Assembly: GCF_963678245.1 (NCBI RefSeq)
Contig: NZ_OY782770.1
Location: forward strand, 310,001-374,000
Origin: an uncultured Sunxiuqinia sp.
Lineage (GTDB): Bacteria; Bacteroidota; Bacteroidia; Bacteroidales; Prolixibacteraceae
Length of the DNA stretch: 64,000 nt
Direction: 5' to 3'
Numbering within the stretch: position 1 is the stretch's first letter; every line of letters begins with the position of its first letter. Positions 25,115 to 34,909 of the stretch are shown in pieces. The notes under the pieces are model-generated. The model was not told where the DNA came from, ran no database searches, and saw nothing but the letters and a program-made list of their open reading frames with translations. The translations under genes were made by a program, and so were the position numbers.

Positions 25115-25146
25115 TTTGGTACACTTTTAATTTATCACTATACTTG
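25115..25146 (+). promoter_or_regulatory. Promoter of the his operon
   Basis: TTTG (25115-25118), a 20-base spacer and TATACTTG (25139-25146, one mismatch to TAnnTTTG). Transcription should begin near 25153, about 14 bases before the leader peptide ATG. Confidence 0.65.
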
Positions 25147-25166
25147 CAGCACAAAATTAAAACGAC

Positions 25167-25229
25167 ATGTACAACAAACTTGGACATTACGGTCATCATC
25201 ACAACAACCTATTTATTGGTAGGCCGTAA
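25167..25229 (+). CDS. his operon leader peptide
   Basis: A 20-codon ORF, MYNKLGHYGHHHNNLFIGRP, holds four histidine codons (positions 7, 10, 11 and 12) between the his promoter and hisG. Its last codons (GGT AGG CC) also form segment 2 of the attenuator. When His-tRNA is scarce the ribosome should stall at 25185-25202, leaving segment 2 free; when His-tRNA is plentiful it reaches the stop codon and covers segment 2. It is too short for ordinary gene callers. Confidence 0.85.
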   Translation: MYNKLGHYGHHHNNLFIGRP

Positions 25230-25293
25230 TTCTTTTGTTTTGTTTTAAAAAATATTAACCCAAAGAAGGCTTACCATTAGGTAGGCCTTTTTT
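25218..25293 (+). promoter_or_regulatory. Transcription attenuator of the his operon
   Basis: Segment 2 (GGTAGGCC, 25218-25225) and segment 4 (GGTAGGCCTT, 25280-25289) are near-identical, and both can pair with segment 3 (AAGGCTTACC, 25266-25275). The 3:4 hairpin, with loop ATTA and a T-run at 25288-25293, is an intrinsic terminator 16 bases before hisG. The 2:3 pairing (one G-T wobble) would be the antiterminator. Because segment 2 overlaps the end of the leader ORF, ribosome position decides which forms. Confidence 0.85.
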
Positions 25294-25309
25294 ATTGATT
25301 TAAACTATC

Positions 25310-26167
25310 ATGACACAATTGAGAATTGCTATTCAGACAAAAGGAAGATTAAACGAAGATTCAATGCAGCTCATGCAAGAAGCTGGAATTAAGATCAATC
25401 TCGGAAAACGTAAACTATTGGCTGCTGCTAAAAATTTCCCAATCGAAGTTTTGTTTTTACGTGATGATGATATCCCCCAGGCGGTTGCTGACCAGGTTGC
25501 CGACATTGGTATCGTTGGAGAAAATGAAATGTTGGAAAAACAGCAAAGCGTTAAAATTATTAAGCGACTGGGATTTAGCAAATGTCGTTTAAGTCTGGCT
25601 ATTCCAAAAACCGAAGAATATGTTGGCATCGAGTGGTTCAATGGGAAAAAAATTGCCACCTCATATCCGGTCATTTTGAAAGATTTTCTGGATAAAAATA
25701 ATGTGAAAGCTGACATTCATGTTATTTCCGGCTCAGTGGAAATTGCCCCTGGAATTGGACTGGCTGATGCGATTTTTGACATCGTTAGTTCCGGTTCGAC
25801 ATTGGTTTCAAACCGCTTGAAAGAGGTTGAAGTAGCTCTTTACTCTGAAGCCGTTTTAGTTGCTCCACAAGGGCTTTCAGCTGAAAAACAAGCCATTTTG
25901 GAAGAACTAATTTTCCGCATGGAATCAGTTGAACGTGCAAAAGATAAAAAATACATTCTGCTGAATGCTCCAAGCGACAAGATCGAAGAAATTACAGCAA
26001 TCTTACCCGGAATGAAAAGTCCGACAGTCACTCCTCTTGCTGAAAAAGGGTGGAGTTCATTGCATTCGGTTATTGCAGAAAGCGACTTCTGGGAAATCAT
26101 CGGCAAGCTAAAAGCCGCTGGAGCTCAGGGCATTTTAGTTGTTCCGATTGAAAAAATGATTTTTTAA
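25310..26167 (+). CDS. hisG: ATP phosphoribosyltransferase, long form
   Basis: HisG joins ATP and PRPP in the first step of histidine synthesis. The 285-residue protein is the long type, with catalytic domains (LRIAIQTKGRLNEDS, and the PRPP-loop region around DAIFDIVSSGSTLVSN) and the C-terminal regulatory domain (KYILLNAPSDKIEEI ... GAQGILVVPIEKMIF) that binds histidine for feedback inhibition. The operon is therefore probably regulated both by attenuation and at the enzyme level. Confidence 0.97.
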   Translation: MTQLRIAIQTKGRLNEDSMQLMQEAGIKINLGKRKLLAAAKNFPIEVLFLRDDDIPQAVADQVADIGIVGENEMLEKQQSVKIIKRLGFSKCRLSLAIPKTEEYVGIEWFNGKKIATSYPVILKDFLDKNNVKADIHVISGSVEIAPGIGLADAIFDIVSSGSTLVSNRLKEVEVALYSEAVLVAPQGLSAEKQAILEELIFRMESVERAKDKKYILLNAPSDKIEEITAILPGMKSPTVTPLAEKGWSSLHSVIAESDFWEIIGKLKAAGAQGILVVPIEKMIF

Positions 26168-30022: not shown

Positions 30023-30907
30023 ATGAAAAGCATCAAACCCTTACGAGAGAAGAAGAATACAGCAATTCTTTTAATACACTGCCCTGACAAACAGGGAATT
30101 TTAGCAACAGTGACTGAATTCTTGAATAAGAATAATGGGAATATCATCAACTTGGATCAGCATGTCGACCGAATTGAAAAGATTTTTTACATGCGGGTTG
30201 AATGGGAATTGGATGATTTTGCCATACCTTCAAAAAAAATTGGTGAATACTTTGATACACTAATCGGTTCAAAATTGGAAATGAACTGGAAAATCTATTT
30301 TTCAGAGGATGTTCCACGGATGGCTATTTTCGTATCTAAAATGTCGCATTGCTTATTTGATATTTTGGGACGATATACTGCTGGAGAATGGGATGTTAAA
30401 ATTCCGGTTATCATCAGCAATCACGAAACCATGCGGCCTGTTGCAGAGCGTTTCGGAATTGAATTCGAATACGTTCCCTTAACCTCAGAAAACAAAGCCG
30501 AGCAAGAAGCAAAAGAAGTTGAATTATTGAAAAAGCACAAAATTGATTTTATTGTGTTGGCACGCTATATGCAAATCTTGTCGAAAGATTTTGTTTCGCA
30601 TTACCCTAATAAAATCATCAACATCCACCATTCATTTCTACCGGCATTTGCAGGAGCAAAACCCTACCACGCAGCGCATGCCCGTGGGGTAAAACTAATT
30701 GGAGCTACCAGTCATTATGTAACTCATGATTTAGATGCAGGCCCCATCATCGAGCAAGGCGTCACGCAATGTAGTCATGTGGACACCATTAAAAGTTTGA
30801 TCCGAAAAGGACGCGATCTGGAAAAGATTGTATTATCGAACGCTGTATTTAATCACCTGCAACGAAAAGTGCTGGTTTACAACAATCGTACGGTGGTATT
30901 TAATTAG
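30023..30907 (+). CDS. purU: Formyltetrahydrofolate deformylase
   Basis: PurU hydrolyses 10-formyl-THF to formate and THF, feeding formate to PurT and balancing one-carbon pools. The 294 residues contain an N-terminal ACT domain (about 14-90, LIHCPDKQGILATVTEFL) and a formyltransferase domain with NIHHSFLPAFAG and the Asp of HDLDAGPIIEQ. Its place inside the his operon is notable: histidine synthesis consumes ATP and releases AICAR, so purine and one-carbon balance are connected, but the link is inference. Confidence 0.93.
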   Translation: MKSIKPLREKKNTAILLIHCPDKQGILATVTEFLNKNNGNIINLDQHVDRIEKIFYMRVEWELDDFAIPSKKIGEYFDTLIGSKLEMNWKIYFSEDVPRMAIFVSKMSHCLFDILGRYTAGEWDVKIPVIISNHETMRPVAERFGIEFEYVPLTSENKAEQEAKEVELLKKHKIDFIVLARYMQILSKDFVSHYPNKIINIHHSFLPAFAGAKPYHAAHARGVKLIGATSHYVTHDLDAGPIIEQGVTQCSHVDTIKSLIRKGRDLEKIVLSNAVFNHLQRKVLVYNNRTVVFN

Positions 30908-30913
30908 TAAAAA

Positions 30914-31444
30914 ATGAAATCAATAGTACTTATAATGTTACTCATCGCAACTTTCACCCGAGCTGAAATTGTTGAAAAAGAAATTCCGGCCGAATATGGA
31001 TATATCGTCGAAATCGGGCAAGAAGCTCCTACTTTTAGCACAGTGACTGTAGACGGACAAAAAGTTAATTTTGCAGACTTGAAAGGAAAAGTTGTGATGC
31101 TGCAATTTACAGCTAGCTGGTGTGGCGTTTGCCGAAAGGAAATGCCACATATTGAGAAAGAAATCTGGGAAAAGCACAAAAACAATTCTGATTTTGCTTT
31201 ATTCGGAATTGACTTGGATGAACCGAAAGAGAAAGTGCAAAAATTTGCTGAGGCAATACCGGTCACCTACCCACTCCTACTCGATCCGAAAGGTAAAATA
31301 TTTTACAAGTACGCCGAAGAAGGAGCTGGTGTAACCCGTAATGTGATTATCGACAAAACAGGTAAAATTATTTATACCACCCGTCTTTTCAAACAGGAGG
31401 AGTTTGATGAAATGAAACAAGTCATTGACGAACTACTGAAATAG
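30914..31444 (+). CDS. TlpA-like thioredoxin inside the his operon
   Basis: The 176-residue protein has a short N-terminal hydrophobic segment (1-16) that probably directs export, and a thioredoxin/peroxiredoxin-like fold with TASWCGVCRKEM (Cys70, Cys73). It starts 6 bases after purU, so it is co-transcribed. It has no obvious role in histidine synthesis. Confidence 0.85.
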   Translation: MKSIVLIMLLIATFTRAEIVEKEIPAEYGYIVEIGQEAPTFSTVTVDGQKVNFADLKGKVVMLQFTASWCGVCRKEMPHIEKEIWEKHKNNSDFALFGIDLDEPKEKVQKFAEAIPVTYPLLLDPKGKIFYKYAEEGAGVTRNVIIDKTGKIIYTTRLFKQEEFDEMKQVIDELLK

Positions 31445-33736: not shown

Positions 33737-34909
33737 ATGATCAAACAAATAAATATTCTGCTCCTAGCTTTCCTAATATCATCTTCTTTATTTGCTCAAG
33801 ATGATCTTGATACACAATTATTAAAGCAAACTCCCAACTGCGAAAACGTTGCCTATAACTCGACACAACTAATTACTGAACTATTCGACAAGTCAAAAGT
33901 TGATTCTATTAGTTTAGTCGTAAGCAAATGGGAAAGTTTTTGCGGAGGAAGTGAACCTCTGTTTCGGGTAAAAGTGCTAACAAAAATCTCATTAGCAACT
34001 TTTAATGATAAAGAAAATTCAGAACAAGATACCGAAATGAGTATGATACTTGCCTATCTGGATCGTAAAAAGCTTTCGGAAGAACAAAATTATCATCAAC
34101 TCTACGAATACTACAAGCTTTATCTCGGTTACGTACCTCTGAATTCAAACTTCGATTTAACAACCATAACGTGGGCAAGCAGCCTGCTGGATGAAAATGA
34201 TGATCTTCGCCCTGACGAAAAAGCCTTTTGTTTATTGTATTCCAATCAAATTGATGAGTTCTGGAGCTACCTCAAATCAAGTGAAATGCAGAACAGCAAA
34301 CTATATAAAACCTATAAGCAGGAAGAAGATCGTGCCAATAATATGTGGGACGGGCACATCAACTTTTTTAGCGGTGTATTTGTGCCAACTTCAAATTTAT
34401 CCAATGTAATTGGCGCTAAATCAATCTTTGGATTTCAATTGGGTGCCAAGGCGAAAAAAACTCAAATGGATCTTTCTTTTGCCTTCCGACCGGGAAAGGC
34501 TAAAGAATACTACAATGTTTATTTTGAAGATAGTCTGGTTCAAACCCAAGATCATCTTGGTGGGTATATTGGGCTGGATTTTGCTCGAGAGTTAACCAAC
34601 AATTATAAGCGTGAACTGGATCTGGAATGGGGAATTGCAGCAGATTTCATGGACGTAATATCAGGAGATCCGGATGTTGCCGACGACAGCAAAACGCTAT
34701 CTTCTTTCAACTTTAACTGTGGACTAGGATATCGATTCTATTTTAAAAACATGAATTACATCGGTTTGCATGCAAAATACAATTTCGTAAACTACAAGAA
34801 TAAAAAAGGGACTAACCTGGATGGCAACTATCTCTCTTTCACTATTTCGTACAATTTGTTTGGGAATCCGAATAAGTACAGTTTATTAGAAAAAATGAAA
34901 TTAAAATAA
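33737..34909 (+). CDS. Exported protein of unknown function with barrel-like C-terminus
   Basis: I do not recognise a named family. The 390-residue protein has a signal peptide (1-20, SSLFAQ), an alpha-helical middle part of about 190 residues, then a region of alternating strands (LGGYIGLDFARELTNN, NFNCGLGYRFYF, NGNYLSFTISYNLF-like) resembling a small outer-membrane barrel. It lies between hisF and hisIE with short gaps (19 and 5 bases), so it is expressed with the histidine genes. Nothing in the sequence explains a metabolic role. It may be an outer-membrane protein captured in the operon. Confidence 0.7.
   Translation: MIKQINILLLAFLISSSLFAQDDLDTQLLKQTPNCENVAYNSTQLITELFDKSKVDSISLVVSKWESFCGGSEPLFRVKVLTKISLATFNDKENSEQDTEMSMILAYLDRKKLSEEQNYHQLYEYYKLYLGYVPLNSNFDLTTITWASSLLDENDDLRPDEKAFCLLYSNQIDEFWSYLKSSEMQNSKLYKTYKQEEDRANNMWDGHINFFSGVFVPTSNLSNVIGAKSIFGFQLGAKAKKTQMDLSFAFRPGKAKEYYNVYFEDSLVQTQDHLGGYIGLDFARELTNNYKRELDLEWGIAADFMDVISGDPDVADDSKTLSSFNFNCGLGYRFYFKNMNYIGLHAKYNFVNYKNKKGTNLDGNYLSFTISYNLFGNPNKYSLLEKMKLK

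Follow-up and report, generated by a model that had tools for sequence, protein, structure and literature searches.

In the window, the whole 64,000-nucleotide stretch of Sunxiuqinia DNA analyzed here, a predicted his operon lies on the forward strand. Its first gene, hisG (25310 to 26167; Pfam HisG and HisG_C), is 97% identical to hisG of Sunxiuqinia indica and is followed, between 26211 and 35517, by hisD, hisC, hisB, genes for a purU-like formyltransferase and a redoxin, hisH, hisA, hisF, an ORF, and hisIE. Pfam assignments cover ten of these eleven genes, the exception being the ORF at 33737 to 34909. The intergenic gaps range from 5 to 180 nt, and inspection by eye of the 180-nt gap between hisD and hisC revealed no internal leader. 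The purU-like formyltransferase and redoxin genes occupy positions 30023 to 31444 within the operon, between hisB and hisH.

Upstream of hisG we found, from its sequence, a candidate promoter of the Bacteroidota type (25115 to 25146, forward strand), composed of TTTG at 25115 to 25118, 20 nt, and TATACTTG at 25139 to 25146. It has one mismatch to TAnnTTTG, the Bacteroidota promoter consensus. The leader peptide ORF MYNKLGHYGHHHNNLFIGRP follows on the same strand (25167 to 25229), with its ATG at 25167, 20 codons, and a TAA stop at 25227 to 25229. Four of its codons specify His, namely, codon 7 (25185 to 25187) and the consecutive codons 10 to 12 (25194 to 25202). The promoter and a 20-codon ORF with four His codons, three of them consecutive, had both been named in the original prediction and were found again here. 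Dinucleotide shuffling of the intergenic region produced an ATG-started ORF of at most 25 amino acids with at least four His in 25 of 5,000 cases and an ORF with HHH in 11 of 5,000. Among the 941 ATG-started ORFs of 8 to 40 amino acids on both strands of the window, with nested starts counted separately, five contained at least four His or HHH, and HHH was present in the hisG leader alone.

The leader RNA has the full set of mutually exclusive pairings, 1:2, 2:3, and 3:4, all on the forward strand. Segment 1 (ATTACGGTC, 25186 to 25194) pairs with 25222 to 25230 (GGCCGTAAT), which gives the 1:2 protector hairpin around the three-His run. Segment 2 (25218 to 25230) overlaps the final leader codons and the stop, and its positions 25218 to 25225 pair with segment 3 as the antiterminator. 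Segment 3 (AAGGCTTACC, 25266 to 25275) is common to the antiterminator and to the intrinsic terminator 3:4 (25262 to 25293), in which segment 4 corresponds to 25280 to 25289 and which has 14 pairs and a T tail. This was the one terminator-like site found, against 0.1 expected in shuffles, and it lies 16 nt upstream of the hisG ATG (25310). The sequence GGTAGGCC occurs at 25218 and at 25280, both copies pair with GGCTTACC (25268 to 25275), and each of the 2:3 and 3:4 helices contains one G-U pair. Two copies complementary to a single segment, a T-tailed terminator 16 bases before hisG, and a second segment overlapping the leader end had been proposed beforehand, and all three are confirmed; the attenuator had also been called complete, rightly so, though segment 1 had been overlooked. 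The His run is interrupted by a Gly codon (GHYGHHH) located in the 1:2 stem, at 25188 to 25193 and in the corresponding columns of the family alignment A3 (see below), and the RNA pairing therefore probably fixes this Gly in the peptide.

The fold of 25150 to 25297 reached -40.6 kcal/mol (z score of -6.38), a value equaled by none of 200 shuffles. Taken alone, 1:2, 2:3, and the terminator reached -14.2, -17.6, and -19.1 kcal/mol, and 0, 2, and 0 of 200 shuffles, respectively, were as good. The untranslated full leader RNA folded as 1:2 plus the terminator, and 2:3 formed, at -17.6 kcal/mol, when segment 4 was not yet made and segment 1 was out of reach; folding had been put forward as a check, and its outcome fits the proposal. 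With segment 1 removed and segment 4 present, the terminator was still the best fold (-20.3 versus -17.6 kcal/mol), so that antitermination must be kinetic, i.e., a matter of timing. Kinetic antitermination is usual for attenuator switches.

We then considered the conservation of these pairings in the family. Alignment A1 comprised 27 Prolixibacteraceae-type leaders out of 28 fragments, L009 being omitted since it is one base from the window. In A1, 100% of the 3:4 cells were paired, with 10 two-sided changes, and none of 500 shuffles was as high; 2:3 was 98.1% paired, its single two-sided change being that of L040, a leader with joint changes in segments 2, 3, and 4; and 1:2 was 88.1% paired, which is not above shuffles in these 27 rows. 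The model built from A1, termed R1, had one match in the Sunxiuqinia genome, at the position of the his locus, and matched 53 of 60 family genomes. From 72 matches we retained 57 as alignment A3, with opposite-strand, weak, and partial matches as well as five sources omitted. Because A3 was fitted to 1:2 and 3:4, it favors these two pairings, for which 84.6% (12 two-sided changes; 5 of 500 shuffles as high) and 98.9% of the cells (30 two-sided changes; 0 of 500 shuffles as high) were paired, respectively; support for 1:2 is thus weaker than that for 3:4. In the same 57 rows, 2:3 was 97.8% paired, against 97.9% in shuffles, and showed no covariation above shuffles, since its arms are nearly invariant within the family. 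Covariation among relatives, which the original prediction had put forward as a check, was present in 3:4; for 2:3 it did not exceed shuffles inside the family. Untranslated folds of the A3 sequences contained the terminator in 56 of 57 cases and 1:2 in 54 of 57, and 3:4 exceeded 2:3 in stability in 42 of 57. The end of the peptide in the family leaders tracks the RNA pairing segment. Second R1 matches were seen in several genomes: that in G370 is a true tandem, those in G379 and G383 had no His leader and were rejected, and the double match in G410 was set aside, its copies lying at contig ends and perhaps representing an assembly duplicate.

The linker between segments 2 and 3 contains a conserved T-G (25236 to 25237, forward strand) located 10 nt past the core of the 1:2 stem. 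The T was kept in 52 and the G in 51 of the 57 A3 rows. The spacing of 10 nt is that given by the alignment; a pattern search returned it in 30 of 57 rows and picked an earlier TTG, at 5 nt, in 19. At the level of the phylum, the motif WTGTNW was present in 87 of 158 linkers, against 44 expected. The unpaired linker motifs TTTTGT and ATATT are conserved, the latter (25252 to 25256) being kept in most of the 57 rows. RNAalifold gave no conserved base pairs for the 2-3 linker; a structured linker was therefore dropped in favor of a candidate pause site. Judging from this conservation, the T-G after the 1:2 hairpin is probably a site of RNA polymerase pausing, which we take to be comparable to the hairpin-paused polymerase of the Escherichia coli his and trp leaders.

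To place the element in the phylum, we examined 220 Bacteroidota hisG upstream regions, of which two were repeats, leaving 218 distinct ones. The set consisted of (i) the best 80 named loci among the matches listed, (ii) loci from 111 of the 252 hisG-bearing genomes in a phylum-wide draw of 296, nearly all distant hisG matches falling outside this part, and (iii) loci from 29 of the 36 hisG-bearing genomes in a draw of 60 from the order. A His leader was defined as an ATG-started ORF of 6 to 45 amino acids with at least three His in six residues. Such leaders were present at 64 of 80, 86 of 111, and 25 of 29 loci, respectively, amounting to 175 of 220, and the His run, whose conservation had been proposed as a check, is thus widely kept. 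When the same rule was applied to other residues at the 220 loci, Leu came next with 48 and Trp gave 0. In G+C-rich genomes, chance may account for some of these 175 ORFs. Apart from the His run, the leaders differ widely in sequence, as they do in length. A terminator was found within 170 nt downstream at 156 of the 175 leader loci, at a median of 32 nt past the stop, and none was recognized at the other 19. Several loci with a His-rich leader (L152 to L156, L100, L104, and L107) had no recognized terminator; perhaps their output differs, or their hisG start is misplaced. The remaining 45 loci had no ATG-started His leader; hisG directly followed another open frame in several of them, and at least 10 had a His-rich frame lacking an ATG. 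The two examined loci with the distant type of hisG (L193 and L194) had no leader.

The pairing of segment 2 with segment 3 was assessed on leaders with different terminators. Three of 163 leaders, which lay inside terminator arms, were dropped, and the 5' arms of the remaining 160 were of the classes GGCTTRC (n = 80), CCGTYTGA (n = 32), and CCCGGC (n = 14) or had other sequences (n = 34), the last group being left out of the class test. For the three classes, own-class 2:3 pairing averaged -13.1, -11.6, and -11.7 kcal/mol, compared with -6.9 to -9.4 kcal/mol for foreign classes, and it was better than the foreign-class mean in 124 of 126 leaders. The check proposed for segment pairing hence came out in its favor, segment 2 being matched to the segment 3 of its own leader in classes with different terminators. 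When all 160 leaders were considered, own pairing was better than the average over all swaps in 149 and within the best 5% of shuffles in 118. In 152 of 163 leaders, segment 2 overlapped the stop codon (±12 nt), compared with 66% in shuffles, and the first His of the run was at least 16 nt upstream of the start of segment 2 in 156 of 160. A general value for the ribosome footprint underlies this spacing. As read from the sequences, stop overlap and His spacing together are the geometry that stalling and masking would require. At L219, inspection by eye suggested that the segment after the stop could pair with the 3' arm of the terminator and not with its 5' arm.

The Sunxiuqinia locus thus combines a His-rich leader, a terminator, an exclusive antiterminator, a 1:2 protector hairpin, and the spacing for stalling and masking, and we consider it to be a ribosome-mediated transcription attenuator of the his operon with a probability of about 0.93. 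The RNA switch would very probably use ribosome stalling to sense a shortage of histidine. If His-tRNA is plentiful, the ribosome would reach the stop at 25227 and cover segment 2, or leave and allow 1:2 to re-form; with segment 2 masked or held in 1:2, the 3:4 hairpin would end transcription before hisG. When His-tRNA is short, the ribosome would stall at codons 10 to 12 (25194 to 25202) and cover segment 1, leaving segment 2 free, with its start 16 to 24 nt downstream of the stalled codon. Pairing of free segment 2 with segment 3, ahead of segment 4 synthesis, would allow hisG to be transcribed. A pause at the T-G after the 1:2 hairpin would let the ribosome catch up with the polymerase. Control of the operon by ribosome-mediated attenuation, as originally proposed, is supported by these data, and the regulatory response itself is what we infer from them.

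Other explanations account less well for the locus. The alternative structures might hide or free the hisG start without ending transcription; translational variants of this kind are described for other attenuators in passages of PMC9413887, and the 19 His-leader loci without a recognized terminator may differ in output. In Sunxiuqinia, however, the T-tailed terminator is strong and stops 16 nt short of the hisG ATG, the start lies outside the stem, and the terminator covaries in relatives, which makes such translation attenuation very unlikely. The conservation of TTTTGT and ATATT in spite of their unpaired state would fit a terminator governed by a ligand, a protein, or a tRNA, as in a riboswitch, a T-box, or the target of an RNA-binding protein, to which the His-rich ORF would be incidental. 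Against this, no Rfam family, including T-box, reached its threshold in the window or in 20 relatives, and the His-rich leader is retained while terminator sequences change, so that we regard this as highly improbable.

That the ORF encodes a small His-rich, possibly metal-binding protein ahead of an ordinary terminator is the least credible of these explanations: the open frame and a promoter-like sequence speak for it, but the length and non-His sequence of the leaders vary widely, and the peptide end in family members keeps step with the RNA pairing segment. Attenuation accounts far better than any of these for the leader before hisG.

Leaders of this general kind were also present elsewhere in the Sunxiuqinia genome. 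The trpE gene (L230) is preceded by the leader MNQIMLTSWWWHNNFSQYRGER, with WWW, and a terminator, an element that falls below the Bacteroid-trp cut-off in Rfam. A gene for an HMGL-like (leuA-type) protein has the Ile/Val/Leu-rich leader MTLISSISILGILLGILLWMR, and ilvD (L238) has two Ile/Val/Leu-rich leaders in series, each followed by a terminator. This amounts to three of nine loci tested, the Ile/Val/Leu threshold being loose and lacking a chance control; the other six, namely, pheA, thrA, two chorismate-binding loci, and two HMGL-like loci, yielded no leader. Rfam recognized no leader family at threshold in the window or in 20 of the 80 named loci. RF00514 (His_leader) had no match at the gathering score and was absent from matches up to an E value of 10, and RF01692 (Bacteroid-trp) scored 25.8 bits against the window, with a cut-off of 49. 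The sub-threshold matches to Phe_leader, Thr_leader, Bacteroid-trp, and BTnc060 were taken as chance or general likeness.

Attenuation of his operons is described for E. coli and its relatives in passages of PMC9413887 and PMC3896937. Going by these passages, the Sunxiuqinia element resembles the enteric attenuator (RF00514) in its His-rich leader, coupled translation, and alternative hairpins before the first his gene, whereas the E. coli leader has 18 amino acids with seven consecutive His (PMC3896937) and the Sunxiuqinia leader has four His in 20 amino acids, interrupted by Gly. Portions of PMC9413887 report new His-leader attenuators in the Bacillus cereus group, Peptostreptococcaceae, and Erysipelotrichales, which likewise consist of a short leader with three to five consecutive His, an attenuator, an antiterminator, and a terminator and are unmatched by RF00514; they belong to a different phylum and are likened to the Sunxiuqinia element by description. 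The term "Bacteroid" is absent from the main text of PMC9413887. Closer to our case, main-text passages of PMC9723704 (2021) report, for Flavobacterium psychrophilum, a structured 5' element upstream of hisG that is conserved in Flavobacteriaceae and has no Rfam hit. It concerns the same phylum and the same gene and is not dissected in those passages, which also mention structured 5' elements at other genes and clues to leader-peptide attenuation at amino-acid operons. Bacteroid-trp (RF01692), listed in part of PMC2864571, is also a Bacteroidota peptide-leader RNA, but for trp instead of his, and passages of PMC7366714 describe leader-like short ORFs in Bacteroides thetaiotaomicron without naming his. 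The literature searched, with most subscription journals and the Vitreschak 2004 and Lopatovskaya 2010 surveys outside its scope, contained no detailed analysis of a his attenuator from Bacteroidota. The parts of these sources considered report his attenuators for Proteobacteria and some Firmicutes; the Sunxiuqinia element has a partial precedent in its own phylum.

Tandem His leader-terminator units before hisG were seen at five loci (L285, L046, L218, L219, and L228). L285 (G370:C1 3443579 to 3444000, reverse strand) has a promoter-like sequence also before the second unit. On balance, we lean slightly toward his attenuation being old and general in Bacteroidota, with terminator and antiterminator replaced together between groups and with doubled leader-terminator units in some genomes. 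The doubled units, if true, would provide a two-step, sharper histidine switch, and attenuation in two stages could readily be tested at the tandem loci. No Rfam model covers such elements; the present alignments could serve to build a his-leader family for Bacteroidota. The Sunxiuqinia element would extend the textbook mechanism to this phylum. Its ribosomes are considered to initiate mostly without Shine-Dalgarno pairing, so that the leader would be a natural reporter of transcription-translation coupling in the phylum.
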